Virus record (IMG/VR): IMGVR_UViG_3300047462_000185
Coordinates: 1-64,000 of that record
DNA: 64,000 nucleotides
Strand: one strand, 5' to 3'
Source of the DNA: a virus
Position 1 is the stretch's first letter, and every line of letters starts with the position of its first letter. A program made the position numbers and the translations under genes. The notes under the pieces are model-generated. The model saw nothing but the letters and a program-made list of their open reading frames with translations. It had not been told where the DNA came from and made no database searches. Below are positions 5,891 through 59,204 of this stretch, one piece after another.

Positions 5891-5904
5891 CACACGATCA
5901 TGTG
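5891..5904. promoter_or_regulatory. 14-bp palindrome copy 1 (CACACGATCATGTG)
   Basis: This is a member of the dispersed CACATnnnnATGTG family. It lies between the leftward membrane gene (start 5880) and the rightward 1593-residue gene (start 5965), so it could control either promoter. Confidence 0.55.
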
Positions 5905-5964
5905 GGAACTCAGCACCGTAACGGCTAGCGGCGGTGATCTGCAACCCTGGAATGAGGAGAGGCC

Positions 5965-8900
5965 ATGGCTCTGCCGAATCCTCACTTCGATGCCTCGGTG
6001 ATCGGCGCGTTGCGCCAGCGTCTCGTGGCGCACAACCAGGCGCTCGCCAAGCGGGACGACAGGCTCACCCTAGGCAAGATGAAGGGGCTCTATCGGCGCT
6101 TCTACCATGGCAGCGATGATCCGCACGTCGCTGCCCTGATCCGGATCGACAGCCACCTCGCCAAGTTGCGTAAGGCCGAGTTCGACGCGGATGACCATCC
6201 CCGCGGCGCTGGCGGCAAGTTCCGCTCGAAGGGCGGAGCGAGAGCTGGTGCATTCTACCCGGCAACCCGCGATCAGCACGAGGCGCTGAAAGACGAGAAC
6301 TACGGTTATCGCCAAAACCAAACCGCGATCATTCCCGAGACGCGCTACGAGACGCTCGGACCTCCCGCTGCCACAGCGATCGGTGTGGGAGCAGGTGCTA
6401 TCCAGGGCGCTCTGTTCTCGACCCCAAAGGGAGACGCAGTCGATCGCGTTGTGGGGCGTTTCGGCCGCGGATTGGGATGGCTGGCAGGTGATATCGCGGG
6501 TCGCGCCACAATCGGAGCACCTGTTGTCTTGAGCGCGAAGGCAGCGAGACTTGGAATCGGAATGATCAACCGTTCTACCGGTTCTCGATTTCCGCGACCA
6601 AAACCAGATGCGGGCAAAAAATATTTGGCAGCGGGAGCCAAGATCGGCCGTCGTGCTGGACAACAAGTAGGCGGCCTTGCAGGAAAAGCCACTGGGCAGC
6701 TTGCTTCCATTCCGGCGTGGGCAACACGTCGAGCAATCGCAGGAATGATACCAGGTCGCCGCGGCAAATTGATTGCCGCACTCGCTGGGGGTTCGGTCGG
6801 CGGCGTTTTTCCAGGCTATTACGCCTATGGGCACTACCTCAACGCTGGCGTCTCATCGATCGCCCCTTTCATCGACGCGATGTTCCCGCGCCATGTCGAA
6901 AAGGCATTCGGCGCCGACATCGCCGCGCTCCTGACGGACTCCGAGGTGCTGGCCAAGCGCGACGCCGTGCTCGGCCTAGCCGGCGGCAACGACGTGTTGG
7001 AGAAGGCGCTGGGCGCCGAGATTGTGCGACGCGCCGTTCGGTTGATCGGCACCAAGGCCCGCGGCGTCGTCACCAGCAACGCGACCCAGGTGCCGCGCAA
7101 GTTCCGCATGTCGGCCGCGGGGCGCGCCGCCGTCACGGCCAGCGGTGGTGCGGTCGGCTCGATCGCCGGCGCCGCCGGCGGGGCCGCGGTTGGAGCCGGG
7201 CGGGCCATCTGGTCGGAGTTCAACGAAAAGCATCCCCGCGACGAGCGCGGGCGCTTCGCGCATGCCAATTCGGGTCGCGCCATCGCCCATGCCGCCGTGG
7301 TGGGGGCAGCGGTCGGCAGCGGGATCGGCCTGCTGGGCGGGCGCTACGCGGCGCGCCGGTTCGAAACCCGCCTGGCACGCAATGCCCTGGAGACGCATTT
7401 CTCGGCCGAAAACGTGCAGCGGATGCACAGCGACCTCGCCGCCAAGGTCAAGGAGCGCGTCGCGGATCGCTTTCTGGATGGGATGCACGACCCCGACAAA
7501 ATGCATGCCGAGGCGCTCGCAGCCGCGGCCCGAAACAAGACGGAGAAGTCTGAAGCGGCTGAGTTCGGGCGCGCCGCGTCGCACCTGGCGCGTCACCGTC
7601 CCTCCCTGCCCGAGACGATTCCTGTCGCACCTGGCGCGGACATGCATGGCACGGTGCGGGCCTCTCTGGCGCGCGCCGCCAGGGTGCGGTTCGACGCCAC
7701 GATAGGGCGCGCCGCCACATCGCCGATCAGCTGGATCACGCACCAGCTCGACGAGGGGTTCGACACCGAGTTCCGCAAGGGTATGTCGGCGCTCGGCGAA
7801 AAGATGCCGATGTTCGCCAACGCCAAGGGCGCCAAGGCGAACCTGATCAACAACGTCGATCCGGAGCAGCTCAGCCCCGAGGCCCGCAAGCTGTGGGACG
7901 GACTGGTGGCGCGCCGGACCAAGACGCTGGATGAGGTCAAGGAGACGCTACACCGCCGCACCGGCGATATGCAGGGTGCCCAGAAGACGCAACGTGAGTT
8001 GCAGCGCAAGGTAGATGCACTGGCGGCGAAGCGGCAGCATGTCGAATACCGGGGCGCCGAACTGATCGATGACGACGAAGCCGATCCGGCCGAGTTGCGT
8101 GCCTTCCTGAAATCCGAATTCGGCATCGAGTCGAAGGTAAGCAAGCGTCTCGCGCCAGAGGCGCAGCTCAAGGCGCTCAAGACCGAACTGCATAGCGCGA
8201 TCACACAGTTCGACGCCTCGGCCAAGACAGAGATCGAAGACATGACGCGCGACCTGGAGGACGCCAGGGAGCAGGTCAACCATCTGTCATCCGATATCCA
8301 CGGCGATCTGCGGCCCGCCGAGCGCGAGGCGATCCGCAACCCGTTCGCCACAGGCAAGAAGTCGCCGTTCTTCGAGCCGGTCCCGACCCGGGAAGAGCTT
8401 GAATTGATGCGCCAGGTCGCGATCCGGCGCGATCCGACCGTGCGCGCGTTCGACACCGTGACAGAGCAGCGCATCCGCGACGCCGGCAAGCGGCTCGGTA
8501 GCATCCTAGCGACGCAGAAGAAGGCGCTGGAGCGCCGGGGCCGCGCCGGCCTGACGGATGCCGGGGCGCACTGGATGCGCCGCGCCACGCCTATCCTGGC
8601 CCAGCATCTCGATGATGCGATGGCCGACCTGCACGCGCTGCGCGAGACGATGGTGGGCAATCGCGAGCCGAAGGGCTTCCTGCATTGGGTGCTGTTCGAC
8701 CGCGACATGAAGACCGCGGGCGCCTGGATGAAGGCTCAGGCCAAGAAGGCCCACGATTTCGGCGAGAAGATCGGCGGCGCGGCCTGGAACAACAAGGCGA
8801 AGATTGTCGGCGCGCTGGGCGTGGCCGAGGCGATCGGCGGCGTGTCCTACGACGACAAGACAGGCACGAAGGTGACGCTCAACCCGCTGAAATGGTCGCT

Positions 8901-10746
8901 GCCGCGCGGCCTGAAGGTCGAGGCGAGTAACCCAGATCCGTTCAACAAGGACAAAGGCCTGGTCGGCGTCACCTATCGAGCGCGCGACGGCAAGCGCCGG
9001 TTCCTGGTCGGCGCCTATGACGACGGACAGCAGGTCGGTGAAGGCAAGCCACGCCCGCGCCGCGACATCGCGTTCAACGCCGAACTAGAGCAGGTCCGCG
9101 AGCGTGTCCGCCAAGGCGGTCAGGGCGGCGGGGCGCAGGGCCAGGGTGGGGGCGCCCGCGCTGAGCCGGTCCTGCCGGACGACAAGCGCCAGGAGGCTAT
9201 CACCGCAGTGGCCACGCTCAAGGCCCACGGCAAGATCAGAGACGGCGGTTCGGGCGACTGGACCTATCAGCACAAGGAGGGTGCCGATTACGGCCGGCTC
9301 CAGAACGAGGTGCGCACCGCGTTCATTGCCAAGCACAACCAGCGCTGGAATTTCGCGAAGGACAAGCGTCCATACAACCCGGTCGCCTATTTCAGCGCGC
9401 TCCACGATCTCTTCGAGGCGCCCGAAACCGCGCTACTTTCGACCCAGAACAGGGCCGACATCCTGACCGGCAAGGGCATCAACCACGGCATCATGGCGTG
9501 GAACCCGGCCTATGACGGGCAGAACAAGGGGCAGGTCAAACAGGCGCTCCTTCAGGAATTCGCTGGTCAAAGTAACGATGTGCATGTCATCCGTGGCGAG
9601 TCCGACAAGAAGCAGGTGTTCCGCGCGATCGACGTGCTTGGCAAGCATTACGGCCTCGACGGCAGCGATGTGGGCCAGATCCAGGCCGCGGTCGAACAGA
9701 AGATGTCTGGCCACCCGGTCCGCGAAGGCCGTCCACAAGGACAGAGCAACCAGCCGCGTCAGGAGCAGCCACGCGCGCAGAATCGCATCGATCCCAAGAA
9801 CCTGGCCGATGAGCTTTGGCGCGACGGCCATCGCGGCAATCACACGGACCAGGAAAGTTTCCGAAGCATCGTGGCGAAGGCCTACGAGATTAAGCTCGGG
9901 GAACTGAAGCGTGCCGGCAAGGAAGGCCGTGCCGCCGAGATCGAGGCGCTGAACAGCACTGAGCTGAAGTTCAAGGGCTACCAGAAGTCCGACTATGCCG
10001 TCGATCTCCGCAAGGCCGATCTGTGGAGCGCCGAGGAGGGCGACGGCATCAAGCGCGCCGTCGGCATGGGCGCCGGCGATCTCGCTGAGGCCGGGGGCCG
10101 CAAGCTTGGTTCGGGCGCGGGTGGTGGTCCAGATGTTGGGTCAAAGCAGGACAAGCGCTCGTTCTTCGAGCCGGTCCGACTTGGTGGCTCGGTGGGCAGC
10201 TTCGCCGGCGGCGCGGCTGGCTGGACCGGTGCCGAGCGTGCCCTGGCGAGTCGTGCCGCCGGGCGAGCCGCACGTGCGACAGCGGCCGGCGTCATCTCGG
10301 TGCCGCGCCGCGCCAGCGCCGGCATCGCCGGCCGGCTCACCGGCGCGGGCCTCAAGTCTCTCGCGCGAGACGGCGCTGAACACGTGGTCGGGTTCGGCCT
10401 GAAGACGGCCGGCTCGATCCTGGGCGGCGCGGTCGGGCAGATCGGCCTCGAAGCCGCGGCGCGCGGCGCCTACGCATTGGCCGGCAAGAAGGCGCCGGGC
10501 AGCTACGCGCCCAAGATGTCGGGTGGCGAGCAGGTGGCGCGCACCGTCGGCTCAGTGTTGGGACAGGGCGCGGCTGTAGCGCTGGCCCCCGAAACGTTCG
10601 GCGCATCCCTGGCAGCTGGCACAGCCGGCGGTATGGCGGGTGATGCGGTCGGCGGTTGGCTCTACCACCATTTCGCGTCGAACTACGGCAAAGCCACGGC
10701 CAAACACATGGGCCGCTACTTCGCGCCCCCGGCGAAGAGCGCATGA
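5965..10746 (+). CDS. giant glycine-zipper head-operon protein, candidate internal/ejection protein
   Basis: This 1593-residue protein has a good ribosome site (GAGGAGAGGCC) before ATG 5965. Near the N-terminus is DDHPRGAGGKFRSKGG and near residue 420 is KHPRDERGRFA, the same short motif as in the XkdF-type protein. Several Gly/Ala zipper segments occur (IGVGAGAIQGALF, GGSVGGVFPGYYAYG, GSIAGAAGGAAVGAG, VGAAVGSGIGLLGG, GSVLGQGAAVALAP). Residues 620-890 are coiled-coil-like. No enzymatic domain is recognised. Size, position before the capsid gene and membrane-active segments suggest a protein packaged in the head and ejected with DNA; this is inference. Confidence 0.75.
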   Translation: MALPNPHFDASVIGALRQRLVAHNQALAKRDDRLTLGKMKGLYRRFYHGSDDPHVAALIRIDSHLAKLRKAEFDADDHPRGAGGKFRSKGGARAGAFYPATRDQHEALKDENYGYRQNQTAIIPETRYETLGPPAATAIGVGAGAIQGALFSTPKGDAVDRVVGRFGRGLGWLAGDIAGRATIGAPVVLSAKAARLGIGMINRSTGSRFPRPKPDAGKKYLAAGAKIGRRAGQQVGGLAGKATGQLASIPAWATRRAIAGMIPGRRGKLIAALAGGSVGGVFPGYYAYGHYLNAGVSSIAPFIDAMFPRHVEKAFGADIAALLTDSEVLAKRDAVLGLAGGNDVLEKALGAEIVRRAVRLIGTKARGVVTSNATQVPRKFRMSAAGRAAVTASGGAVGSIAGAAGGAAVGAGRAIWSEFNEKHPRDERGRFAHANSGRAIAHAAVVGAAVGSGIGLLGGRYAARRFETRLARNALETHFSAENVQRMHSDLAAKVKERVADRFLDGMHDPDKMHAEALAAAARNKTEKSEAAEFGRAASHLARHRPSLPETIPVAPGADMHGTVRASLARAARVRFDATIGRAATSPISWITHQLDEGFDTEFRKGMSALGEKMPMFANAKGAKANLINNVDPEQLSPEARKLWDGLVARRTKTLDEVKETLHRRTGDMQGAQKTQRELQRKVDALAAKRQHVEYRGAELIDDDEADPAELRAFLKSEFGIESKVSKRLAPEAQLKALKTELHSAITQFDASAKTEIEDMTRDLEDAREQVNHLSSDIHGDLRPAEREAIRNPFATGKKSPFFEPVPTREELELMRQVAIRRDPTVRAFDTVTEQRIRDAGKRLGSILATQKKALERRGRAGLTDAGAHWMRRATPILAQHLDDAMADLHALRETMVGNREPKGFLHWVLFDRDMKTAGAWMKAQAKKAHDFGEKIGGAAWNNKAKIVGALGVAEAIGGVSYDDKTGTKVTLNPLKWSLPRGLKVEASNPDPFNKDKGLVGVTYRARDGKRRFLVGAYDDGQQVGEGKPRPRRDIAFNAELEQVRERVRQGGQGGGAQGQGGGARAEPVLPDDKRQEAITAVATLKAHGKIRDGGSGDWTYQHKEGADYGRLQNEVRTAFIAKHNQRWNFAKDKRPYNPVAYFSALHDLFEAPETALLSTQNRADILTGKGINHGIMAWNPAYDGQNKGQVKQALLQEFAGQSNDVHVIRGESDKKQVFRAIDVLGKHYGLDGSDVGQIQAAVEQKMSGHPVREGRPQGQSNQPRQEQPRAQNRIDPKNLADELWRDGHRGNHTDQESFRSIVAKAYEIKLGELKRAGKEGRAAEIEALNSTELKFKGYQKSDYAVDLRKADLWSAEEGDGIKRAVGMGAGDLAEAGGRKLGSGAGGGPDVGSKQDKRSFFEPVRLGGSVGSFAGGAAGWTGAERALASRAAGRAARATAAGVISVPRRASAGIAGRLTGAGLKSLARDGAEHVVGFGLKTAGSILGGAVGQIGLEAAARGAYALAGKKAPGSYAPKMSGGEQVARTVGSVLGQGAAVALAPETFGASLAAGTAGGMAGDAVGGWLYHHFASNYGKATAKHMGRYFAPPAKSA

Positions 10747-10910
10747 GCGACTCGGCCGGCACCGGCGGTCCCGGTTTCACGCAAAGCCCAGCAGCCTTCT
10801 CCGGCCTGACCAACACAGATCTGCGGCCCCGTCCCCGCAAAAAGCGTCCCGTGCCTTTGCTCAACACAAGCTTTGTGACCCGGCGCGGCCGGAACAGCAG
10901 GAGTCCTCAC

Positions 10911-12296
10911 ATGCGTAAAATCTTCGCCGACAAGCTTGCGCTGCTGAAGACCAGCATCGCCGAGATCAGCAACGCCGCGCCCGAAACACGCGACGCGCTG
11001 CTGGCCAAGTCCTTCAGCGAGTTCGAGGCCGACATCGGCGCGACACTCGATGAAGTCGCGCCCGAGCCGGAGCCGTTGGCCAAAGGGCTGAACCTGATCA
11101 GCAGCCTCGCCACGCTGCTCACCCAGGTCGAGACCACGGTGAAGTGCATCTGCGAGGGCAAGGCCTATCGCTACAGCGACGCCGATGAGGAATGCCCCGA
11201 GCATATCCAACTGGGCCTCCATCACTTCCTCGCGGTCGGCGAGATGGTGCTGCGCGAAATGGTCAACGACCATGTCGAGATGCCGGAAGACGAGATGGAC
11301 GCCGAGAAGGCGGACCGGGCCGGCCAGCTGTTCAAGATCGACAGCGCCGGCACTGTTCTGTTGATCAAGAGCGCACTGCCGGAGAATCTGGTCGGCTTCG
11401 CGCAGGACCCTGCCCTGCTGGCGATCGACCGCATCGAGCTGGGCCGCGACCTCGTCGCGATGGGTGGCGACGTGCTGGTCGCGCTGGACCAGCAGGGCGT
11501 GCTGCCCGACGAGTTGCGCAAGGCCATCCCGCCCGAGATGGGGTCGGACGATGACGCCGGCGACGAGATGGATGGCGACGAGTCGGCCGATGCCGGCGAT
11601 GAGGGTATGGATGACGGCTCTGGCGATGATGGGTCTGGCGATGACGGCGGCGATGGCACCGATCAGATGGACCCGCTCGAGGTCATCGTGCGCCTCGCGT
11701 CCGCCATCATGGTGGTGGGCGGCTCGCTGATCCAGGCTCAGGGCGGCTCAGCGTCGGAAGATGAAGGCGAGATGGGCGGCGAGACCGATGAGGATGGCAC
11801 GGACGAGGCCGACCAAGAGTCGGAGGATACGGGTGGGCCAGGTCCGGCGATCCATGAAGGCGACGATGACGGAAGCACGCCCGAGGGCGAGTCGGGCCAG
11901 GGCGGCACGGACCACACCGCCGATGCGATGCACCGCAAGAACGCGGCGCACCAGTCCGCGCATGGACCGGCGGGGAGCCGCGCCATGTTCTCGGCCGGCA
12001 AGAAGCGCAACCCCGATCAGGCCGAGAAGGTCGCGCCCGGCGGCGCGCTCACCAAGGCGGTCGAGGCACGCATGGGTAAGCTCGAAGAAACGATGGGTGT
12101 GCTGAGCCAGGGCGTGGCCGCGCTCCTGAACCGTCCCGCCGCCGACGACAAGGGCCATTCCGGCATCAGCGCCGCGATCCCGCGTCAGCAGGATGGTCTC
12201 GGCAAAGCAGCCGGTCCCGACATTGCCGAGTTGGCGAAAACCAATCCGGAAGCCGCCGCCACAGCAATGATCCGCACCATCCTGACCGGCCGCTGA
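10911..12296 (+). CDS. acidic capsid-operon protein, possible scaffold
   Basis: This 461-residue protein starts at ATG 10911 after AGGAG. An upstream in-frame ATG at 10743 overlaps the previous stop and would add 56 residues. The first 220 residues are helical and acidic, followed by a low-complexity Asp/Gly/Glu region (DDGSGDDGSGDDGGDG) and a second acidic stretch. The C-terminal 100 residues contain a short coiled coil (VEARMGKLEETMGVLSQG). Acidic helical proteins directly before the capsid gene are commonly scaffolds or capsid chaperones. No sequence family is recognised. Confidence 0.65.
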   Translation: MRKIFADKLALLKTSIAEISNAAPETRDALLAKSFSEFEADIGATLDEVAPEPEPLAKGLNLISSLATLLTQVETTVKCICEGKAYRYSDADEECPEHIQLGLHHFLAVGEMVLREMVNDHVEMPEDEMDAEKADRAGQLFKIDSAGTVLLIKSALPENLVGFAQDPALLAIDRIELGRDLVAMGGDVLVALDQQGVLPDELRKAIPPEMGSDDDAGDEMDGDESADAGDEGMDDGSGDDGSGDDGGDGTDQMDPLEVIVRLASAIMVVGGSLIQAQGGSASEDEGEMGGETDEDGTDEADQESEDTGGPGPAIHEGDDDGSTPEGESGQGGTDHTADAMHRKNAAHQSAHGPAGSRAMFSAGKKRNPDQAEKVAPGGALTKAVEARMGKLEETMGVLSQGVAALLNRPAADDKGHSGISAAIPRQQDGLGKAAGPDIAELAKTNPEAAATAMIRTILTGR

Positions 12297-12310
12297 TTTT
12301 GCTTGCTAAT

Positions 12311-12324
12311 CACATTTTTATGTG
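12311..12324. promoter_or_regulatory. 14-bp palindrome copy 2 (CACATTTTTATGTG)
   Basis: Perfect five-base half sites flank a four-base spacer, with AT on both sides. It lies in the 176-base gap between the acidic protein gene and the major capsid gene, about 150 bases before the capsid start. I see no convincing -35/-10 pair around this copy. Confidence 0.6.
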
Positions 12325-12472
12325 ATTCGTATTCGACACCATTGAGCGAGCCATGTGCCGCTCCTGCTCGTCGCGCCGGTTGAGCCCCGGCTGATCCGGT
12401 CCGGTCACTGACCAGGCCAAGGGTCCTGCCCGATACGCCGCCCTGGGCAGCGGTGAGCCGAAAGCTCAACTG

Positions 12473-13987
12473 ATGAATACCCCGCAAGACAGTCTGGAGC
12501 TCATCAAGGGCGCCCTGGCGAGTGCTGGCCTTTCCGCAGCCGAAGACGTGCTGGCGAAGGCCTTTCTGCAGCCCACCACAACGCCCACAGGCTTGCAGGT
12601 CTATGACCTCGAAGCCCCGGCAAAGCTGCTCTACCCGGTCCTCACTCCGCTGCGCAACGCGATCCCGCGCGTCGGCAATGGACGCGGCATCCAGGCCAAC
12701 TGGCGCGCCGTGGTCGGCATCAACACGACCGGCGTGATCGGCTCGCTGGGCCAGGGCAACCGCGGCGGCGTGATCTCGACCACCACCAAGGACTACCTCG
12801 CCGCGTTCCGTGGCCTCGGCTACGACGACTATGTGACCTGGGAAGCGGACATGTCCGCCGAAGGGTTCCAGGACCTCAAGGCGCTCGCCGTCCAGGGCCT
12901 GCTTCGCTCGCTGATGATCGAGGAAGAGGCCACCATTCTGGGTGGTAACGGCTCGGTCGCACTGGGCACGCCCTCGACCCCGACCGTCACCGCGATCGGC
13001 TCGGGCGGTTCCATCGCCAACGCGACCACGGTCTATGTCGGCGTCGTCGCGCTGACCCACCAAGGCTGGCGTTCCTCGAACCTGGTCAGCGGTGTGCCTG
13101 GTCTGGTGAGCCGCACCAACGCCGACAGCTCGGTTGACACCTATGGCGGCGGCTCGTCCGCAGCCTCGGCGCTCGGCTCCGTCACCACCTCGGCGTCCAG
13201 CTCGACAGTCACCGCATCCGTCACCCCGATGGAGGGTGCCGTTGCCTATGCCTGGTTCGTCGGCTCGGCCAACAGCGCGGCGTCGTGCTATCTCGCCGCG
13301 ATCACCACGCTCAACTCGGCCGTCTTCACCGCGCTGCCGGCCAACACCCAGCAGGCCCTCAGCACCATCACGGCGGACAACAGCGCCAACTCGCTGTCGT
13401 TCAATGGGCTGCTGTATCTCGCATCGGCTTCGGGCTCGGGTGCCTACTGGGCCGCGCAGCCGACCGGCACGAACGGCACCGGCACGCCGCTCACCGCGGA
13501 CGGGTCGGGCGGCATTGTCGAGTTCGACACGATGCTGCAGTCGTTTTGGACCAACTACCGCCTGTCGCCTTCCGAATTCTGGGTGGGAACGCAGGAGCTC
13601 AACTACCTTCGCAAGAAGGTGCTGGCCAACACCGCGTCCGTGCCGAATCTGGTGCGCTTCACCGTCTCGACGGCGCGCGACCAGCTGCAGGGCGGTCTCG
13701 GTATCCGCGGTTACCTGAACCCGTTCGGCATGGGTCAGGCGGTCGAGATCCCGATCAAGCTGCACCCGAACATGCCGAACGGCACCATCCTGGCCGTCAC
13801 GCATGAGCTGCCCTACTCGCTGTCGGGCGTCTCCAACGTGATCCAGATGAAGCTGCGACGCGAGTATCACCAGCTCGAGTGGCCGCTGCGGTCGCGCAAG
13901 TATGAATACGGCGTCTACATGGATGGCGTCCTGCAGCATTATTTCCCGCCGTCGTTGGGTATGATCACCAATATCGGCGCCGGCTGA
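12473..13987 (+). CDS. major capsid protein, HK97 fold, with inserted Ig/FN3-like domain
   Basis: This 504-residue protein is in the position of the major capsid gene, following protease and putative scaffold. N-terminal features fit a capsid: ALASAGLSAAEDVLAKAF, then LLYPVLTPLRNAIPRV, EADMSAEGFQDLKALA and LRSLMIEEEATILGGNG. The C-terminal blocks ARDQLQGGLGIRGYLNPFG and LRSRKYEYGVYMDG also fit capsids that bind hexamer neighbours. Residues about 165-310 form a Ser/Thr/Gly-rich beta insert (TVTASVTPMEGAVAYAWFVG) that resembles a fibronectin-type surface domain. No strong Shine-Dalgarno is visible. Confidence 0.85.
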   Translation: MNTPQDSLELIKGALASAGLSAAEDVLAKAFLQPTTTPTGLQVYDLEAPAKLLYPVLTPLRNAIPRVGNGRGIQANWRAVVGINTTGVIGSLGQGNRGGVISTTTKDYLAAFRGLGYDDYVTWEADMSAEGFQDLKALAVQGLLRSLMIEEEATILGGNGSVALGTPSTPTVTAIGSGGSIANATTVYVGVVALTHQGWRSSNLVSGVPGLVSRTNADSSVDTYGGGSSAASALGSVTTSASSSTVTASVTPMEGAVAYAWFVGSANSAASCYLAAITTLNSAVFTALPANTQQALSTITADNSANSLSFNGLLYLASASGSGAYWAAQPTGTNGTGTPLTADGSGGIVEFDTMLQSFWTNYRLSPSEFWVGTQELNYLRKKVLANTASVPNLVRFTVSTARDQLQGGLGIRGYLNPFGMGQAVEIPIKLHPNMPNGTILAVTHELPYSLSGVSNVIQMKLRREYHQLEWPLRSRKYEYGVYMDGVLQHYFPPSLGMITNIGAG

Positions 13988-14019
13988 TCCTGGCTTCGCC
14001 TGATCGGTCCGTCTCAAAC

Positions 14020-14055
14020 GTGGCGTGGAGGGAAACTTCCACGCCACGACTGTTT
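14020..14055 (+). terminator. hairpin after the major capsid gene
   Basis: An 11-base arm GTGGCGTGGAG pairs with TTCCACGCCAC around a short loop, followed by GACTGTTTT. It is 33 bases after the capsid stop and 15 before the next gene. The short T-run suggests partial termination, which would raise capsid mRNA over downstream genes, or mRNA 3' protection. Confidence 0.6.
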
Positions 14056-14069
14056 TCAGGAGAACTCGA

Positions 14070-14546
14070 ATGCATCTCTTCAAGCTGCGGCCCGGCGTAA
14101 CATCCGTCTCGGTCGACGGTGTCGAATACCGGCCCGACGAAGACGGTTTCGTTCGGATCGACTCGCCATCGCTCAAGGTGCTGGGGTTCCTCTCCACCGA
14201 AGGGCACCGCGCCGCGACCGACGAGGATTTCGCGACGCCACCGGCCGCCGGCTCGGAAGACGACGAGAAGACAGCGCTGCTGGCGCGCATCGAGGCGGCG
14301 GGCGGCAAAGCGGATCGGCGCCGCTCGCTCGCCAACCTGCGCTACATCGCGGCCGAGCTCGAAGCGCCAACACCGCCAGCCGCCGCCGCGGCAGCAGCAC
14401 CAGCAGCACCAGCAGCGGCGCCTGCAACCCCTGCGGCCACCCCGGAGCCGCCGGCGGCTACGCCAGCGCCCACAACAGCCACCACGCCAGCACCGGAAGC
14501 AACGGGCGCCGCTGCCCCGGCCACGCCTGAGTCAGCGGCTACCTGA
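14070..14546 (+). CDS. hypothetical protein with Pro/Ala-rich tail
   Basis: This 158-residue protein starts at ATG 14070, eight bases after AGGAG. The N-terminal 45 residues form a compact beta unit (VTSVSVDGVEYRPDEDGF) followed by a helix (ALLARIEAAGGKADRRRSL). The last 70 residues are an extended Ala/Pro/Thr tail (PATPAATPEPPAATPAP). It lies between the capsid and head-tail connector genes, where decoration or head-completion proteins are usual. The function is not recognised. Confidence 0.7.
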   Translation: MHLFKLRPGVTSVSVDGVEYRPDEDGFVRIDSPSLKVLGFLSTEGHRAATDEDFATPPAAGSEDDEKTALLARIEAAGGKADRRRSLANLRYIAAELEAPTPPAAAAAAAPAAPAAAPATPAATPEPPAATPAPTTATTPAPEATGAAAPATPESAAT

Positions 14547-14549
14547 TCC

Positions 14550-15143
14550 GTGTCTGGCTCGACCGAAACCGTATCGACGCCCTGGATCACGCTGGCGCAG
14601 CTCAAGGCGTGGCTCAACATCACCGACTCGAGCCAGGACGCCAACCTGACCCCCTTGCTCACCGCGGCGACGCAGGCCTGTATCTCCTATCTGAACCGCG
14701 ACCTGGTGCAGTCCAGCCAGACCGAGACCTATGACGGGCCGGGCAGTTCGATCCTGCCGCTGAACACGTTCCCCATCACCGCGGTGGCGAGCGTGATGAT
14801 GGACGGCCAGCCCGTCGTTCCGGCCGCGTTCAACCAGGCCGGCTATGTGATCGGCAAGTTCTCGCTCCGGGCGAAGGGAATGGTCTGGTGCAAGGGGTTC
14901 CAGAACGTCACGGTCAGCTACACGGGCGGCTATGCCACGATCCCCACCGATGCGGTGCAGGCCTGCCTGCTGGCCGCGTCGGCCATGTTCAACTCGATGG
15001 CGGCTGACCCCAACCTCCAGTCGGAATCGACGTCAGGCGTATTCTCCGGCTCGTTCTGGCAAAGCGGGCCCGGCGCGCTGCCGCCGTCGTCGCGCAGCCT
15101 GCTGATCAACTATCGCAAGGTCTACAGCGGCATCGCGGGGTAA
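14550..15143 (+). CDS. head-tail connector (HK97 gp6-like) protein
   Basis: This 197-residue protein starts at GTG 14550. The opening WITLAQLKAWLNITDSSQD, followed by LTPLLTAATQACISYLNR, is the classic start of gp6-like adaptor proteins, which form the ring beneath the portal. A conserved-looking Gly-Gly-Tyr (VSYTGGYATIPTDAVQACLL) and the C-terminal ISPxR-like RSLLINYRKVY also fit. It follows the capsid genes, as expected for a connector. Confidence 0.8.
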   Translation: MSGSTETVSTPWITLAQLKAWLNITDSSQDANLTPLLTAATQACISYLNRDLVQSSQTETYDGPGSSILPLNTFPITAVASVMMDGQPVVPAAFNQAGYVIGKFSLRAKGMVWCKGFQNVTVSYTGGYATIPTDAVQACLLAASAMFNSMAADPNLQSESTSGVFSGSFWQSGPGALPPSSRSLLINYRKVYSGIAG

Positions 15144-15149
15144 CGCATC

Positions 15150-15857
15150 ATGATGGGACGCGGCTACTACCTGCAGCGTCGCATCGATGCCCGCTACCAG
15201 CAGCGCGGCTCGCAAATCACGCTGCGGCGGGTCTCCTTCCTGTCAGGCAACAATACGCTGCCCAACCCAGCCATGCTCAAGAATCTCACCGTCGCCCAAG
15301 ACGCGGCCCAAGGTGACGTCACGGTTTCGCTCAGCGCCACCGTGGCGCGGGGACGGCTCGTGCCGGGCGACCAGCTCGTGATGGGCAACGTCACGGCCAC
15401 TGTGGCGCAGCTCCAGGTCAACGACATCACGCTAGAAAGCGGGACCGTTCTCTTCGCCGAAAATGGCGATCAGATCACGCTCGACGGGTCGTTCTCATCC
15501 TATGACCTGCCGCCCTTGCTGACCGACACGCCAGCGGTGAACAATGCTTTTCCGCAGGTCCTGCTGACCGAGCCCTTGTCGGGGCCCGTGAGTGCCGGAA
15601 CCCAGGTGACGATGGTCTGGCAGGCCGACACGACGGTTTATGGCTACATCAACAGCTATGACAACACGATGATCGACGGCCAGCGCATCCAGGCCAATGA
15701 CCTCCAGGTCGGCATTTCCGCGCTCAGCGCCAATCCTGCTGCGCCTCCCACCATCACCGACAAGATCGTCGTGCTGGGCGTCGAGAAGGCGATCCTGAAC
15801 GTGAGCAGCAAGATCAACGACAACCAGCAGCTCGTATGGGTGTGCCAGGTCCGCTGA
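15150..15857 (+). CDS. hypothetical head-closure region protein
   Basis: This 235-residue protein is encoded between the gp6-like adaptor and the gp10-like tail component, where head-closure or stopper proteins are normally found. The N-terminus is basic (YYLQRRIDARYQQRGSQITL). The middle is rich in beta strands (TVSLSATVARGRLVPGDQLV). No sequence family is recognised, so the head-closure role rests on gene order. Confidence 0.65.
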   Translation: MMGRGYYLQRRIDARYQQRGSQITLRRVSFLSGNNTLPNPAMLKNLTVAQDAAQGDVTVSLSATVARGRLVPGDQLVMGNVTATVAQLQVNDITLESGTVLFAENGDQITLDGSFSSYDLPPLLTDTPAVNNAFPQVLLTEPLSGPVSAGTQVTMVWQADTTVYGYINSYDNTMIDGQRIQANDLQVGISALSANPAAPPTITDKIVVLGVEKAILNVSSKINDNQQLVWVCQVR

Positions 15858-15867
15858 GGAGGTCGCT

Positions 15868-16694: not shown

Positions 16695-16757
16695 GCTGAA
16701 GCGTCAGTAGAGTCCCACATGCCGCTTGGGTAGCGGCGAACAGCAAGGTTTCCGCAC

Positions 16758-17987: not shown

Positions 17988-17991
17988 TATC

Positions 17992-18005
17992 CACATCATC
18001 GTGTG
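17992..18005. promoter_or_regulatory. 14-bp palindrome copy 3 (CACATCATCGTGTG)
   Basis: This copy lies five bases after the tail-tube stop and 57 bases before the next gene. A further half-like GTGTGTG follows at 18011-18017. Confidence 0.55.
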
Positions 18006-18062
18006 TTTTCGTGTGTGGGCTGGCGCTTGGTCCAGTGACGCGCAACAAGGGAAGGGACGGAG

Positions 18063-50297: not shown

Positions 50298-51113
50298 TTA
50301 CTCCGCCGCCGCTTGGTGTTCAGGCTGATCCGCGGGCGGCTCGCGATGCCACGTCTCGCGGTAGGTCGTGGTGACGAACGCCAGGGTCGCGGGCGACATC
50401 TTGCCGCGCAACTCGACATCATCGAGCCAGAACTTGTCCGCCTCGGCCGGGTCGGCCGCGTTCTTCAGCGCGGAGTTGAATGCGGCGACGAGCTTTCTGA
50501 ACGTCGCATCTTCCTTCGTTGCACTCGGCGGCGCAGAGGCCGGCGTGCGACCCGTGGGGCGGCGCGTCTCCTGCGGTGGCTCGGGCTGCTGCTGCTGCGC
50601 CATGTCGCGCTCGAGGGCGGCACGCTCGGCATCGTAGTCGCGGAAATGGTTGCCCTCGAAGATGTTGGCGTCGTCGTCCTCGTCACTGGCAAGGCAGAGG
50701 ATCGTGTTCACGCTGTAGCGGCGCATATAGGTCAGCTGCGAGCCAAACGCCTGCGGACCGCCACCCTCTTCCAGCGGCATTTCGCAGCTGATCCACTGGC
50801 CGCTCTTGTGAATGATGCGCGTGGTCAGCCACGGGCGCGGCTCGTAGGTGATGACCTGGATCACGGCCAGACCCGCATTCGCCATAGGGGCGCGGATCGT
50901 GTTCATGATGCTGCCGAGCGTGGCATACTTGAACTTGTAGGAGCCGCTCGACTTCGATCTGACCTCGACCTCGCGGTCGCGGGGCGGGTTCTGCACCTCT
51001 CCCTGGAACTGGACCAGGGCGGCATAGATTTCGACGATCTCTGCGCTCTCACGGCGGATCGGGGCAGGCACAACTTGCGCCGGCGGGGCCGACAGGATCG
51101 ATGCGTCGCTCAT
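50298..51113 (-). CDS. ERF-family single-strand annealing protein
   Basis: This 271-residue protein has the ERF core: IYAALVQFQGEVQNPP, KFKYATLGSIMNTIRAPMAN, GLAVIQVITYE and FGSQLTYMRRYSVNTILCLA, followed by EDDDAN. ERF proteins anneal complementary single strands in phage recombination. It overlaps the exonuclease gene by four bases (ATGA), a usual pairing. Confidence 0.88.
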   Translation of the reverse strand: MSDASILSAPPAQVVPAPIRRESAEIVEIYAALVQFQGEVQNPPRDREVEVRSKSSGSYKFKYATLGSIMNTIRAPMANAGLAVIQVITYEPRPWLTTRIIHKSGQWISCEMPLEEGGGPQAFGSQLTYMRRYSVNTILCLASDEDDDANIFEGNHFRDYDAERAALERDMAQQQQPEPPQETRRPTGRTPASAPPSATKEDATFRKLVAAFNSALKNAADPAEADKFWLDDVELRGKMSPATLAFVTTTYRETWHREPPADQPEHQAAAE

Positions 51114-52120
51114 TCTGCGGCCTCCTGGACCGGTTCTGCGGCCTGCTCGGCCGGTGCCTCATCGGGCATTTTGACGATGGTGACGGCGCCGTTCTTCGCC
51201 TTGCTGGCGCTGATGCCGTGGCCGAACGCGCGGCGCGCCTCCTTCGGGAAAAGCGCCTTGATGTCCTTCTTGGCGGCGTCGAGAATCTTCGCGGCCTCCT
51301 CGTGGTCGATGAACCGGTGTGCCGCATCGGCCCAGGCGTTGCTCGCCGTCATGTCGGTCTCGACCATGCTGCTTAGGTCGAGCACGGCGGGCGGCAGGTT
51401 CATCGCTTTTGGCTCGATGCCGCGCTCGACCGATTGCCAGAACCGCGCCTCGGCCTCGGCCAGTTCGGCCATATAGACCGGATCGAATTCGATGGGCTGG
51501 AGGATGTGCTTGTAGGTGCCCATCGTCATCGAGAGATAGGCGAACTCGGTGCCGGCGACCCACATGTTGTGCTGACATTGGGGCCAGAACTTTTCGATCA
51601 GCTCGGGCAGCTTCTGGAACCCCACCGCTGCCTTACACTCGACAATGCCTGTCATGCCGGCGATCGTGCTGAGCAGGAATCCGTCGAGCGAAGCGTGCCG
51701 GTGCGCCACCTTCGGATGTCGCGCCACCTCGCCGTGACGGGTGATGCGCGTCCCAGGCGCGCAGAAGCCCTGCGCCGCGGCCGCTTCCTCGGTGATGGCG
51801 AGGTTGAGACGTTCGAGCCAATGGCCGCAGCGCACCGTCAGGTCGCCCGAGATGTCATGGTGGGCGCGTTCGCCCCGCATGATCTCGGCCAGTTCGAGCA
51901 GCTTGCCCGGCTCGCCCTTGGCGATGATCCGGGCGTCCGAGCCGCCGATGCTGCGCTCGCGCTGGGCGCGCTGCTTGGGGGTGAGGCCGAGACTGGCCAG
52001 GTCGACGATACCGTCGGGCCGGAGCCCGTAATGGGGCGTCAGTGCTGCCATGACCGAGAGCAGCCGTTCGAGGGAAAGCTCCTCGCTGGCCGCGATGGCG
52101 GCCAATTCCTCATGATCCAT
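51110..52120 (-). CDS. YqaJ-type viral recombinase exonuclease
   Basis: This 336-residue protein starts at ATG 52120. It has the order of YqaJ/lambda-exo-like nucleases: RERSIGGSDARIIAKGEPGK, RCGHWLERLNLAITEEA (Glu ligand), GFLLSTIAGMTGIVECKAAVG (the E-x-K motif) and PQCQHNMWVAGTEFAYLSM. It degrades one strand of DNA ends to give the annealing protein a substrate. It is the first gene of its leftward operon. Confidence 0.85.
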   Translation of the reverse strand: MDHEELAAIAASEELSLERLLSVMAALTPHYGLRPDGIVDLASLGLTPKQRAQRERSIGGSDARIIAKGEPGKLLELAEIMRGERAHHDISGDLTVRCGHWLERLNLAITEEAAAAQGFCAPGTRITRHGEVARHPKVAHRHASLDGFLLSTIAGMTGIVECKAAVGFQKLPELIEKFWPQCQHNMWVAGTEFAYLSMTMGTYKHILQPIEFDPVYMAELAEAEARFWQSVERGIEPKAMNLPPAVLDLSSMVETDMTASNAWADAAHRFIDHEEAAKILDAAKKDIKALFPKEARRAFGHGISASKAKNGAVTIVKMPDEAPAEQAAEPVQEAAE

Positions 52121-52150
52121 TTCGCTGTCCTTGCTGGATTGGCGATAAGC

Positions 52151-52164
52151 TACATGGTAGTGTG
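52151..52164. promoter_or_regulatory. 14-bp palindrome copy 9 (TACATGGTAGTGTG)
   Basis: It lies in the 76-base divergent gap between the leftward recombination operon (start 52120) and the rightward Rmf/CrpP-like gene (start 52197), with TTTTC following on the + strand. The outer C of the left half is changed to T. Confidence 0.5.
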
Positions 52165-52196
52165 TTTTCTCGTCAAGCCCGGGGGACGTGATCAAG

Positions 52197-52517
52197 ATGC
52201 GACGCCGTCCAAACCCACTCAGCCATGTGCCAGTCACGCGAGCACAGGCGATAGCGGCTCACACGGCGGGCCAGCATGCCTATGCTGCTGGCACCGAACA
52301 CGGTGCGTGCGACATCGCGAGTGTAGAGCTTAGGTGGCAATGGCAGGCCGGCTGGCGCGCCGCCGATGCAGCGTTCTGGCGCCGGCTACGCGATTGTGCT
52401 GAGCGCGGCCCGCTTCCAGGTGTTGGTCGCGGTGCGGACCTAGACATAGCTCGCGTCCCACGATCCGCCGTCGAGCCGACACACCGGATGGAGCTTCCAC
52501 CAAACTCACTTGGCTAG
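52197..52517 (+). CDS. Rmf/CrpP-like small protein
   Basis: This 106-residue protein is the only rightward gene inside the leftward arm. The pattern AIAAHTAGQHAYAAGTEHGA, then RWQWQAGWRAADAAFWR, resembles the Rmf/CrpP fold (A-x3-G-x2-A-x3-G, then W-x2-G-W). Members include ribosome-modulation-type and phage-borne proteins. GGGGGA precedes the start; a GTG at 52188 is an alternative. Role unknown; a host-takeover or dormancy role is speculative. Confidence 0.5.
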   Translation: MRRRPNPLSHVPVTRAQAIAAHTAGQHAYAAGTEHGACDIASVELRWQWQAGWRAADAAFWRRLRDCAERGPLPGVGRGADLDIARVPRSAVEPTHRMELPPNSLG

Positions 52518-55921: not shown

Positions 55922-55935
55922 CTCATTTGCATGTG
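55922..55935. promoter_or_regulatory. 14-bp palindrome copy 10 (CTCATTTGCATGTG)
   Basis: The right half is perfect and followed by TTTTTTT; the left half is degenerate. It lies 108 bases before the first leftward gene. Confidence 0.4.
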
Positions 55936-56179: not shown

Positions 56180-56193
56180 CACACATTGCTGTG
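56180..56193. promoter_or_regulatory. 14-bp palindrome copy 11 (CACACATTGCTGTG)
   Basis: Followed by TTTTC. It lies 16 bases before the ATG of the replication initiator gene. Confidence 0.55.
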
Positions 56194-56209: not shown

Positions 56210-57277
56210 ATGCATTCGTCGTTCAACGCCCCGGCCTGCTCTTGGGCATTTTCAATCACAGCGCCCTCGGCGCACGCAAAGCTGCTGTTGGTAGCGGTGG
56301 CTGCGCATGCGGATCAGGACGGGCTGTCGAAGGTCTCGATCACGCGGTTGGCCGAGATGACGGATATGAGCTTGCGGGGCGTTCACAACGTCCTGGCCCA
56401 ACTTGAGCGGGCACGCCTGATCGCCGGCGAGCGAGTGCCGGGCATCGTGACGGCCTACAGAATCAAATGGCGTGGCACCGCCAAGGAAATGGAGACCCCT
56501 GCACCGGATGCAGGGGTGGTTGTCGGAACTCCTGCACCGGATGCAGGGGTGGTTGTCGGAACCCCTGCACCGGATGCAGGGGTGGTTGTCGGAACCCCTG
56601 CACCGGATGCAGGGGTTCGCGCGCGCGTAGATTCTGAATCTCAGAGAGAGAAAGAAAGAAAGGAAGTAAGCAAGTCCTCAGATTCTTCTCCGCTTCGCTA
56701 CGAAGAATCTGAGACCCCCCTGCCCCCCACAGAAATTCCGACAGCGGCACAACTCGCCAAGGCTGAGATTGGCGGCAGGATGCGGGACATTTGGAACGCG
56801 GTGGTCAAGCCGTTCCCGCATTTTGCCCAGTCGAAGTGGCTCACCCCGAAGCTGCTCAATCTCGCGGTCGAGCGGTTCCAGCACGAGTTCAACCGCAGCT
56901 TCGAGCAGTGGGAAGCCTATTGCCGCAGGTTGACCAGGAACGCGTGGCTCCGCGGCGAACGTCCGGACGACAGGTCGTGGCGCCCCAGCATCGAGTGGGC
57001 CATCCAGGCCGACACGGTGCTGAAGGAGGCCGAGGGCCGCTACCCGCCCGACCCGGAGCCGAAGCCCCAGGTCGTGCAGCCGATGCACGACGTCGATCCC
57101 ACCCAGGACCCGATCTGGGGCAAGCCGAACAGGATCAAGCTCGAGATCGCGCTGGCGATGCAGCGCCCCGTGATCGACGACGCCAAGCTCCAGGAGCTGT
57201 CGCGCGACTACAAGGCGGCGCTGGTCGAGGCCAGAGCCGCCCAGGCCGCGCTGAGCGGGGCGGTGGCCCATGTCTGA
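56210..57277 (+). CDS. replication initiator-like protein with internal iterons
   Basis: This 355-residue protein starts at ATG 56210 after GGAGGG. The N-terminus is a winged helix-turn-helix of the replication type: SAHAKLLLVAVAAHADQDGL, VSITRLAEMTDMSLRGVHNV and LAQLERARLIAGERV. Residues 95-135 are four copies of TPAPDAGVVVG encoded by 33-base DNA repeats. The C-terminal part is helical with Trp residues (WNAVVKPFPHFAQSKWLTPK) and would bind the helicase. The initiator gene precedes the primase-helicase gene, as O precedes P in lambda. Confidence 0.75.
   Translation: MHSSFNAPACSWAFSITAPSAHAKLLLVAVAAHADQDGLSKVSITRLAEMTDMSLRGVHNVLAQLERARLIAGERVPGIVTAYRIKWRGTAKEMETPAPDAGVVVGTPAPDAGVVVGTPAPDAGVVVGTPAPDAGVRARVDSESQREKERKEVSKSSDSSPLRYEESETPLPPTEIPTAAQLAKAEIGGRMRDIWNAVVKPFPHFAQSKWLTPKLLNLAVERFQHEFNRSFEQWEAYCRRLTRNAWLRGERPDDRSWRPSIEWAIQADTVLKEAEGRYPPDPEPKPQVVQPMHDVDPTQDPIWGKPNRIKLEIALAMQRPVIDDAKLQELSRDYKAALVEARAAQAALSGAVAHV
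56495..56616 (+). repeat. four 33-base direct repeats, iteron-like
   Basis: Units begin at 56495, 56528, 56561 and 56594 (the last is 23 bases). Each contains the dyad CCCCTGCA-ccgga-TGCAGGGG; the second unit has one base changed. Unit length keeps the reading frame. The repeats lie within the initiator gene. Confidence 0.85.
56617..56713 (+). other. candidate replication origin: AT/purine-rich segment plus dyad
   Basis: After the iterons comes a purine-rich, relatively AT-rich stretch (56627-56676, with AGAGAGAGAAAGAAAGAAAG). It is followed by an inverted repeat with 12-base arms (CTCAGATTCTTC at 56677-56688 and GAAGAATCTGAG at 56702-56713). Iterons, AT-rich block and inverted repeat come in the same order as in the lambda origin inside gene O. 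Confidence 0.55.
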
Positions 57278-59177
57278 CGCTCGGCCCGACGAGACCCTGG
57301 AAGATGCGCTGGGGCGGCACGGCATCCAGCTGCCCGGCGCGCCCAAGGCTGGGCACACCTACGGCGGCCCACGCGACCGGCGCCAGGTCATGTGCCCGCA
57401 TTGCAATGGCGGGAGGTCCCGCGAGGCCAACTTCTTCGTCACGATCGACGCGGACGGCCAGGGTGCGGTGTGGGTGTGCCATAGCGCCAAGCGCTGCGGG
57501 TGGACCGGGTCGGTGCGCCTGCAAAATGCACCCCATATCAAGCGCGCCAAGGCGCCTCGCCCGATCCGCCGGCCAGAGCCGGAGCGTGACCCGCAGCTGC
57601 CCGAGCAGACCATTGCCTACTTCGCGGCGTTCGGGGTGCCGCTCGAGACGCTTGAAGAGTTCGGCGTGTTCCGCACCGTGCGGCGCTTTCCGGTCATGGA
57701 CGCAGAGGGGCGCTTCACCGACGAGAAGCTGCCTCGCCCCTGTATCGCCTATCCGTATTACCGCGGCGGCGAGTTGGTGAACTGCAAATACAAGACGGTT
57801 TACCCCAGCGGGAAAAAGGCCTTCGCGCAGGAGTGGGGCGCCGAACGGACGATGTTCAACATCGATGCGTTCGAGTCGGATGACATCGGTTACATCGTCG
57901 AGGGCGAGGACGACGTCCTGGCGATGCGACAGTGCTACCGCCAGGTCACCACGCTGCCCGACGGCAGTCCTTCGGCCAAGAAGCACGAGGAACCGGAGCA
58001 GCCCTACGACCCTGACCAGGACGACGATGATCGCTACGAGGCGCTGCGCAACGAGCCGAAGATCTTGAACCTAAAGAAGGTCGTGCTGTGCGGCGACGCC
58101 GATGAGGCCGGGGCGCGGCACATGGAGCAGATCGCGCGGCGCATCGGCAAGGAGAAATGCTGGATCGTGCGCTGGCCCACCAACTGCAAGGACGCCAAGG
58201 ACACGTTGAGGCTATATGGGCCAGAGGCATTGTTCGCCACGGTCGAGGCTGCGGTGCCCTACCCGATCGACGGGTTGGCCGATGTCGATGACGAGGAGAT
58301 CGCCAGCTATAGAGCCGGCCTCGACGAGAAGCGCATCACGTGCGGCATTTCGCAGATCGACCGCTACCTATCGCTCGCCGATTCGGGTCGCAACTTCATC
58401 GCCTGCACCGGGATACCGGGTCACGGCAAGACCGCGTTCTGGGTCGCGTTATCCGTGCTCTATGCTGAGACCAACACCGACTTCCACACCGTCATGTTCT
58501 CGGGCGAGATGGAGGTGAAGGAGATCGTCGCGGCGATCGCCTCGGCGCATACCCAGAAGCCATTCTTCGATGGGCCGGCCGGCGAGGGCATCAGCACCGA
58601 CGAGCTGGTCGATCATGTGCTGCCCTGGATGCGGCAGCACTACACCTTCATCGAGCCGGAGGACAGCAGGGGCGACAGCCCTCCGGTCGACTGGGTCGTC
58701 GAGAAGGGCCGCATCGCGATCCGGCGCACCAAGGCTAAGCTGTTCATCGTCGATCCGTGGCAGGAGATGGACATGTGCTACCCGGAACGGTGCAGCAAAT
58801 CCATGTCGGCCTGGATCGGCGATCAGCTGCGCAAGTTCCGCTACTTGGGCCGGACCGAGCGGTGCAACGTGGTCTGTGTGGCGCACCCGTCGAAGTTGAG
58901 GCGCGACAAGGACGGCAAGCTGCCGATCCCTGAGGGCTACGATATCATGGACAGCCAGCAGTGGTTCTCGGTGAGCCGCACCGGCATGACGATTTACAGG
59001 CCGGGCGATGACAGCAGCCCCGAAATGAAGGTGCGGGTCTGGAAGGCGCGCTACAGCCAGTTCGCGATGAGGGGCGACACCTCGGTGCGGTTCAACAAGA
59101 CGACGAAGCGGCTCTACCCCCCTCTGACCCAGGCCGACATCGATTCGGGGCGCGCCTGGGGCAGCGACGCGGCTTAG
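57270..59177 (+). CDS. bifunctional primase-helicase
   Basis: This 635-residue protein has an N-terminal zinc-binding part (VMCPHCNGG and CHSAKRCGW). A toprim domain follows (IGYIVEGEDDVLAMR and VVLCGDADEAGARH). The C-terminal DnaB/gp4-like helicase has Walker A TGIPGHGKT near residue 380 and KLFIVDPWQEMD as Walker B. VCVAHPSKLRRDKDGKLP follows. It would unwind DNA and make primers at the fork, as T7 gp4 does. The eight-base overlap with the initiator gene suggests coupled translation. Confidence 0.92.
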   Translation: MSDARPDETLEDALGRHGIQLPGAPKAGHTYGGPRDRRQVMCPHCNGGRSREANFFVTIDADGQGAVWVCHSAKRCGWTGSVRLQNAPHIKRAKAPRPIRRPEPERDPQLPEQTIAYFAAFGVPLETLEEFGVFRTVRRFPVMDAEGRFTDEKLPRPCIAYPYYRGGELVNCKYKTVYPSGKKAFAQEWGAERTMFNIDAFESDDIGYIVEGEDDVLAMRQCYRQVTTLPDGSPSAKKHEEPEQPYDPDQDDDDRYEALRNEPKILNLKKVVLCGDADEAGARHMEQIARRIGKEKCWIVRWPTNCKDAKDTLRLYGPEALFATVEAAVPYPIDGLADVDDEEIASYRAGLDEKRITCGISQIDRYLSLADSGRNFIACTGIPGHGKTAFWVALSVLYAETNTDFHTVMFSGEMEVKEIVAAIASAHTQKPFFDGPAGEGISTDELVDHVLPWMRQHYTFIEPEDSRGDSPPVDWVVEKGRIAIRRTKAKLFIVDPWQEMDMCYPERCSKSMSAWIGDQLRKFRYLGRTERCNVVCVAHPSKLRRDKDGKLPIPEGYDIMDSQQWFSVSRTGMTIYRPGDDSSPEMKVRVWKARYSQFAMRGDTSVRFNKTTKRLYPPLTQADIDSGRAWGSDAA

Positions 59178-59190
59178 CGGGCTTGCGAAA

Positions 59191-59204
59191 CACATAACCG
59201 TGTG
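59191..59204. promoter_or_regulatory. 14-bp palindrome copy 12 (CACATAACCGTGTG)
   Basis: Flanked by AAA and GTTT. It is in the 60-base gap after the primase-helicase and 34 bases before the next ATG, within a rightward operon. Such a place suits a transcription stop site more than a promoter. Confidence 0.55.

Follow-up and report, generated by a model that had tools for sequence, protein, structure and literature searches.

The virus record IMGVR_UViG_3300047462_000185 (106,637 bases, labelled G000) carries many dispersed copies of a 14-bp palindrome, CACATnnnnATGTG, and these are probably operators of the phage's own CI-like repressor, dimers of which, positioned at promoters, would silence many transcription units in the lysogen. 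The window analysed here comprises bases 1–64000 of this record, and sites are named by record coordinates. All twelve copies that the original prediction had listed in the window exist at the positions given, and the observation is both real and larger than reported. As judged from sequence comparisons, the protein whose presence goes along with that of the motif is the CI-like repressor, which is encoded outside the window.

Compared with CACATnnnnATGTG, three of the twelve window copies are exact, six have one mismatch and three have two. When up to two mismatches are allowed, the window contains 25 matches (19.8 ± 4.2 in shuffled sequences), and mismatch counting alone is no proof of enrichment; the significance is carried by the exact palindrome and by the matrices. 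The exact palindrome occurs three times in the window (shuffles 0.02) and eight times in the whole record (shuffles 0.03; reversed control 0). Among palindromes with two 5-bp arms and spacers of 0–12, CACAT-N4-ATGTG is the most over-represented one in the record (8 vs 0.05). The conserved core, CACA-N6-TGTG, is shorter than reported and was found 22 times in the record vs 1.4 in shuffles; enrichment of CACA...TGTG is seen at spacing 6 only, the remaining spacings from 0 to 14 giving 0–5 occurrences.

Most of these sites were recovered with a held-out matrix, which was derived from two other phages, G005 and G022, and their 15 exact sites. At score 15, this matrix found eight of the twelve reported sites and no further match in the window (shuffles 0.7, maximum 3), and at score 11 it found 11 of the twelve plus three extra ones (shuffle mean 4.5, maximum 13); in the whole record it produced 19 matches at score 15 (shuffles 1.1, maximum 4). 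Enrichment over shuffles thus holds with the held-out matrix, and the motif recurs in other phages. A pooled matrix trained on G000, G005 and G022, and hence not independent of G000, yielded 31 sites in the record at score 13; its twelve sites in the window are exactly those reported and 19 others lie beyond position 64000, so the 53-kb extent originally proposed (5891–59204) does contain copies but is too small. A non-overlapping matrix was used, as a first iteration drifted into CACACA register shifts (102 overlapping matches).

The sites are preferentially located between genes. Genes were called with our own caller rather than taken from curated annotation, and their starts are uncertain. 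At score 13, the sites that lie wholly outside called genes number 26 of 31 in G000, 8 of 8 in G005, 18 of 25 in G022 and 8 of 8 in G026. Palindromic matrices with permuted columns (60 for each phage) gave means of 51, 39, 38 and 37%, respectively, and maxima of 71, 88, 68 and 75%, and the observed share exceeds both the mean and the maximum in each of the four phages; for G005, with its eight sites, at least one of the 60 permuted matrices reached 0.88. This control is fairer than the binomial P value for intergenic position (7.7e-11 for G000), which is overstated because the matrix is AT-rich. The claim that all twelve window copies are intergenic holds for 11 of them, the exception being 52151, which falls inside the 5' end of a called recE-like open reading frame. 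Together with the recurrence in other phages, the intergenic bias supports the view that this is a genome-wide set of protein-binding-like sites belonging to the phage.

Seven distinct phages were scanned whole, four of which encode CI (G000, G005, G022 and G026) and three of which do not (G001, G002 and G004). A profile of the first two CI proteins (A1) matched four of the 31 records searched, namely the four just mentioned. The exact motif was found 8, 5, 10 and 0 times in G000, G005, G022 and G026, respectively, and 0 times in each of the three phages without CI. With a matrix trained on G000, the counts at score 13 were 19 in G022 (shuffles 0.6), 7 in G005 (0.2) and 8 in G026 (0.1), compared with 2 in G001 (0.9), 3 in G002 (1.4) and 1 in G004 (1.0). 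Thus, the motif accompanies CI in four phages, taking a looser form in G026, and is at or near chance in three phages without CI. Elsewhere, the exact motif was seen 0 or 1 times in other virus records, many of which are fragments, and 1–3 times in three bacterial genomes of 1.7–3.9 Mb; this pattern search covered 33 records, 11 of them outside the CI profile search. The first 50 kb (of 61,859) of Brevundimonas phage Polewnik contain no CACA-N6-TGTG.

We also compared the frames of G000 that are found in at least two of its three motif-bearing relatives and are absent from G001, G002 and G004. This comparison yielded 17 rows, a number that includes several antisense or overlapping frames, and CI is the only identified regulator in the set; the other rows include a run of tail genes at 23.9–29.9 kb, Erf- and RecE-like genes at 50301 and 51113, and a gene at 59600 without known function. 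In G000, sites precede the capsid (12311), recE-like (52151), O-like (56180) and terminase (75244, 76421) genes. Sites recur before homologues of the capsid gene (in G022), the recE-like gene (G005 and G022), the O-like gene (G022) and CI itself (G005, G022 and G026). The site-bearing genes that follow CI in G005, G022 and G026 are homologous to each other; their counterpart in G000 has no blastp match. Some sites at homologous genes, e.g. those of the terminase, a minor tail protein and the called gene 5965–10746, are present in one phage only, so the site set turns over.

Searches for further CI relatives were poorly sensitive, and G022 and G026 surfaced only in the profile search. Query P0001 found no CI relative among viral contigs, missing G005 too, whereas P0002 and A1 found G005 only; the search of genome contigs gave no CI match. 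In the phage collection there was a single weak match, to Pseudanabaena phage Pan3 (28% identity, E 4e-3), and none for P0002.

The CI-like gene (65226–66029, + strand) starts just past the window and is divergent from a Cro-like helix–turn–helix (HTH) gene (64937–65227, − strand; Xre-like-HTH, E 0.012), with an exact palindrome (65242–65255) at the divergence. This site falls in the first codons of the longest open reading frame, which makes the start of CI uncertain. With the pooled matrix at scores of at least 13, two more sites were found in this region, at 64918 and, downstream of CI, at 66138–66151. The arrangement of a divergent Cro-like gene with a site in between and another site downstream of CI is found in G000, G005, G022 and G026 alike. 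The evidence for the Cro-like gene is weak, with no PHROG match and a similarity to a frame of G022 at E 0.002.

The assignment of the CI-like protein draws on PHROG 4, HTH_26 and the model fold. The protein matches PHROG 4, 'transcriptional repressor' (E 3.4e-6, residues 33–253), and its Cro/C1-type HTH matches Pfam HTH_26 at E 6.5e-4, just under the Pfam cut-off; the G005 homologue matches Peptidase_S24 (E 8e-5), also just under it. At E values up to 1, HTH_26 is detected in three of the four CIs and Peptidase_S24 in one. A structural model based on the four homologues has a mean predicted local distance difference test score (pLDDT) of 67.8 and a predicted template modelling score (pTM) of 0.50. 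Its only Foldseek matches at or below 0.001 are a lambda-186 hybrid repressor (two chains), the 186 repressor and LexA; their TM-scores by query length (0.26–0.30) and root mean square deviations (about 15–17) indicate that the domains fit singly and not as a whole. VIA-align Z scores of the model were 9.7 for the SinR HTH, 9.5 for the C-terminal domain of lambda CI and 9.4 for that of LexA. A CI sequence profile found nothing better among PDB chains than AimR HTHs at E 0.03. By its model, then, CI appears to combine a lambda-type HTH with a LexA/CI-like C-terminal domain.

The four CIs hardly differ in the segment (N/S)ANA(I/L)YN, which we read as the putative recognition helix; near-invariance would be expected there if all four proteins read the same half site. 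In the same alignment, the column that we take, from the LexA motifs, to be that of the putative catalytic Ser contains H, S, S and H, and the putative Lys column contains Arg in all four proteins, because of which RecA-driven self-cleavage of CI looks unlikely. In phage 186, induction proceeds via an antirepressor, and our guess, by analogy, is that the same could be true here. The HTH protein encoded at 46821–47213, which the original prediction named as a candidate binder, has no significant match in six relatives, motif-bearing or not (best E 0.22), and weakly resembles sigma-70 region 4 and HTH_38, below the Pfam cut-offs; it does not fit that role.

The relation of the sites to promoters was analysed on both strands of 78 sites (31 + 8 + 25 + 14, with a score cut of 11 for G026 and 13 for the others). 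At 19 of these, a −35-like CTTG starts 5–14 bp upstream of the palindrome, one per site, compared with 6.5 ± 2.5 in dinucleotide shuffles (maximum 15 in 500), and eight of the 19 boxes are at the identical distance of 9 bp; the −14 to −5 window was picked after viewing the listed sites, which makes this significance optimistic. Some sites resemble good promoters whose spacer contains the palindrome, e.g. site 31724 of G022 (CTTGAC, palindrome, ATATG). An average of TTGACA across 51 oriented sites showed no sharp peak other than within the palindrome. The CTTG boxes make the sites resemble operators at promoters more than stoperators of the L5 type. We also considered leaderless mRNAs, as the sites at 46264 (− strand), 75244 and 18513 end 5–6 nt before a possible ATG, and rejected this idea, as the starts are uncertain and the −35-like box explains more.

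Some of the sites are paired, at spacings of 30 bp (46264/46294) and 44 bp (18469/18513) in G000, 30 bp in G005 (19636/19666/19696), 31 bp in G022 (40854/40885) and 33 bp in G026 (14334/14367). Dimers bound 30–44 bp apart would be set on nearly the same face of the DNA, and such pairs may bind cooperatively.

From these observations we infer binding, dimerisation, repression, lysogeny and cooperativity. A dimer of CI would read the two CACA/TGTG half sites; dimerisation is suggested by the two-fold symmetry of the site and by the architecture of the protein, an HTH plus a LexA/CI-like domain. Located on or beside a promoter, and in part just behind the CTTG box, the dimer would block RNA polymerase at the capsid, tail, lysis-side, recombination, replication and terminase genes, the tRNA array and the CI/Cro divergence, where the site would also be autoregulatory. 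In the lysogen, the genome would be silenced unit by unit, which would provide immunity.

Several observations weigh against CI operators as the explanation. The sites are known from sequence alone and their binding by CI is a prediction, and the Cro-like protein is another possible binder. G026 has CI and no exact motif, and its four CACA-N6-TGTG are within the shuffle range (mean 0.55, maximum 5). Among the phages without CI, G002 shows a small excess with the pooled matrix at score 13 (6 vs a shuffle mean of 2.0, maximum 4), and so does G004 with the G022 plus G005 matrix (7 vs 3.0, maximum 6); G004 also has four CACA-N6-TGTG (shuffles 1.2, maximum 4). The co-occurrence comprises four positive and three negative phages that are not mutually independent. 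Five of the 31 sites in G000 touch called genes, and 59 of the 78 sites have no CTTG at the place described. Finally, the link to lysogeny is loose. A search of 15 records for tyrosine integrase found it in G000, G022 and G026; G008, a record without a CI match, has one too, whereas none was found in G005, G001, G002, G004 and the remaining records; no resolvase domain was found in the eight records searched for one. Phages G001, G002 and G004 (capsid 62–63% identical), with no match for either CI or tyrosine integrase, are perhaps virulent members of the same lineage.

The first alternative to CI operators is that the Cro-like protein or an unrecognised activator binds the sites and switches on or times genes instead of silencing a prophage. 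Lambda-type Cro and CI share operators, a Cro-like HTH gene is divergent from CI here, and sites are found at late and early genes alike, all of which would suit this proposal. However, G001 and G004 encode the Cro-like gene as well but not CI, and in both of them the motif does not rise clearly above chance, so that the Cro-like gene alone fails to explain the motif. The position of 19 of the 78 sites just behind a −35-like box suits repression, and we regard this alternative as unlikely.

Even less probable are stoperators like those of mycobacteriophage L5, to which the original prediction had compared the sites and at which a repressor bound in short gaps stops the elongating polymerase rather than initiation. 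The comparison is apt in that the sites are many, genome-wide and mostly intergenic, several of them in short gaps between co-oriented genes. It fails in other respects: L5 sites are asymmetric, with an orientation that matches transcription (PMC9283540), whereas the sites described here are palindromic and about one in four has a −35-like box ahead of it. In addition, no site at score 13 falls within the long gene run at 18.6–38.1 kb.

It is highly improbable that the sites belong to a host regulator and have been recruited by the phage. Such capture is known for Alphaproteobacteria phages, some of which are crowded with CtrA sites, TTAA-N7-TTAA (PMC9437464), and the terminase and capsid relatives of G000 point tentatively to the same bacteria. 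Nevertheless, the motif differs from TTAA-N7-TTAA and the matrices contain no TTAA dyad; relatives with the same capsid and terminase type lack the motif or have it near chance, and its presence follows the phage's CI.

That the palindromes act as RNA hairpins or terminators followed by a T-run is scarcely credible and largely refuted: many of the 31 G000 sites can be folded (minimum free energies of −1.2 to −12.0 kcal/mol) and TTTT directly follows 6 of the 12 window copies, but core pairs 0–3 are uncompensated, with complementarity equal to or just below that of permuted sites, and this lack of core covariation favours recognition at the DNA level over a terminator. Three of the four flanking pairs show a small excess of complementarity (P 0.004–0.026). 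The flanks had been described as A on the left and TTTT on the right of most copies, which is overstated, as an A directly precedes 5 of the 12.

Networks that work in a similar way have been described in several phages. L5-type (cluster A) repressors bind, as monomers with two DNA-binding domains, to more than 20 asymmetric 13-mers in promoters and short gaps in an orientation-dependent manner (PMC9283540); the genome-wide placement in promoters and gaps is shared with our sites, whereas the palindrome suggests a dimer. In phage P1, a single repressor, C1, acts at 22 dispersed operators to repress lytic genes (PMC8546580), a likeness to G000; the differences are the operator, 17 bp and asymmetric in P1 and a 14-bp palindrome here, and the predicted LexA/CI-like C-terminal domain and divergent Cro-like partner. 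The element SPBRE of Bacillus phage SPbeta, 15 bp long and found in intergenic and promoter regions, was first recognised in silico and later identified as the site of the master repressor MrpR, which has a tyrosine-recombinase fold (PMC10516654); it resembles our sites in being repeated in such regions and differs in its motif and in its binder, as the binder proposed here has a CI/LexA-like model fold. The network works like those of L5, P1 and SPbeta and the CtrA case, and belongs to none of them by motif or by protein.

Judged by the architecture of the repressor, this is a CI–Cro module of the lambda/186 kind with operators spread over the genome. The HTH with a LexA/CI-like C-terminal domain, the divergent Cro-like gene and the site between them all resemble lambda and 186, whereas G000 differs from lambda in its sites, which number about 30, are mostly single, extend over more than 100 kb and occur before structural genes as well. 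Lambda operators are few and clustered, and silencing in lambda relies on a few early operators only. The Streptomyces phage phiC31 has palindromic repressor sites (conserved inverted repeats) dispersed between genes, as here, and infects a different host group.

Dispersed repressor operators have been worked out in few phages (L5-type, P1 and SPbeta, as well as phiC31), each with a different repressor, and the part of the literature covered yielded no account of the motif, nor of a network of this kind in this phage group. A repressor of the CI/LexA type appears to use the dispersed architecture in at least four divergent metagenomic phages. The gene, the motif and the promoter geometry are all named, so that the proposal is testable with one protein and one 14-bp probe; the motif also provides a sequence signature for recognising temperate phages of the group, and the question arises how about thirty operators are gained or lost along with CI. 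A broader proposal is possible, although we hold it only tentatively and stop short of calling it probable: a lambda/186-type CI that has probably lost self-cleavage would serve as the whole-genome silencer of a ∼100-kb temperate siphovirus, with one palindrome at each of many transcription units and paired dimers about three helical turns apart. Relatives without CI would have lost the sites or never had them, and this would be a distinct form of lysogeny control in large Alphaproteobacteria-like phages, in which CI and about thirty operators are gained or lost together.

In the window, the first site (5891–5904) is 60 bp before the called gene 5965–10746 and the second, an exact palindrome (12311–12324), is 148 bp before the capsid gene (12473–13987); in G022, too, a site precedes the capsid gene. 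Site 17992–18005 is 57 bp before gene 18063–18467 and is followed, on the tail side, by the 44-bp pair of 18469–18482 and 18513–18526, the latter being exact. The lysis-side site (38105–38118) is 19 bp before gene 38138–38644, after which comes an endolysin-like gene (39184–39843). Site 46264–46277 is exact and 46294–46307 is its partner. Site 52151–52164, with a CTTGAC on the minus strand, lies at the 5' end of the recE-like gene (51110–52237, − strand), whose start is uncertain. Sites 55922–55935 and 56180–56193 follow, the latter 16 bp before the O-like replication gene (56210–57277), whose G022 homologue is likewise preceded by a site, and the last one (59191–59204) comes after the primase/helicase gene (57270–59177). 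CTTG starts 9 bp upstream of the sites at 12311, 17992, 46264 (minus strand) and 59191. Beyond the window and the CI region, sites with pooled scores of at least 13 start at 72786, 73878, 75057, 75244, 76421, 79447, 83474, 84249, 85821, 91543, 93115, 94457, 97116, 101336, 104280 and 104409.

Other repeats and arrays were seen. A single palindrome, GTTCCACGTGGAAC (46315–46328), which we take to be parS-like, is located directly after the 46264/46294 pair, and a ParB-like protein is encoded at 47210–48862 (− strand). Within the O-like replication gene, CCTGCACCGGATGCAGG is repeated four times at an exact spacing of 33 bp (56498–56613), an array that resembles the iterons of a lambda-type origin within gene O. 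At 93395–97833, beyond the window, the record has an array of genes for 29 tRNAs and one tmRNA, with palindromes ahead of or inside it at 93115, 94457 and 97116. In G005 (5959–7392 and elsewhere), TTTCGCCGGCGAAA occurs three times at a 36-bp spacing inside a gene and twice elsewhere in the record, and ACCCC-N4-GGGGT is present seven times between genes, possibly as terminators. Record IMGVR_UViG_3300049215_000061 (G009, 16,389 bases) is 99.99% identical to positions 7847–24235 of the window and was not counted as independent.

The terminase matched 1,441 phage records, and the 20 listed (27–42% identity) are Rhizobium, Sinorhizobium, Caulobacter, Brevundimonas, Paracoccus and Roseobacter phages. 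The capsid protein matched nine phage records, the best being those of Brevundimonas phages Polewnik and Strzyga (46%), with further matches to Arthrobacter, Thermoanaerobacterium and Alicyclobacillus phages (28–38%); in genomes, its best match was a Rhodospirillales metagenome-assembled genome (56%), then Geobacteraceae, Alkanindiges, Methylobacillus and Campylobacterota (44–49%). Because of these terminase and capsid relatives, Alphaproteobacteria are tentatively the likeliest host group. The large terminase subunit (76459–79035, beyond the window) has 858 aa, and its matches in L008–L012 span only ∼1,400 bases; some 390 residues look inserted and are possibly an intein. The match in L013 is longer, at 2,685 bases, and L013 may contain a separate insert; the terminase matches listed include Caulobacter phages whose terminases are annotated as intein-bearing.

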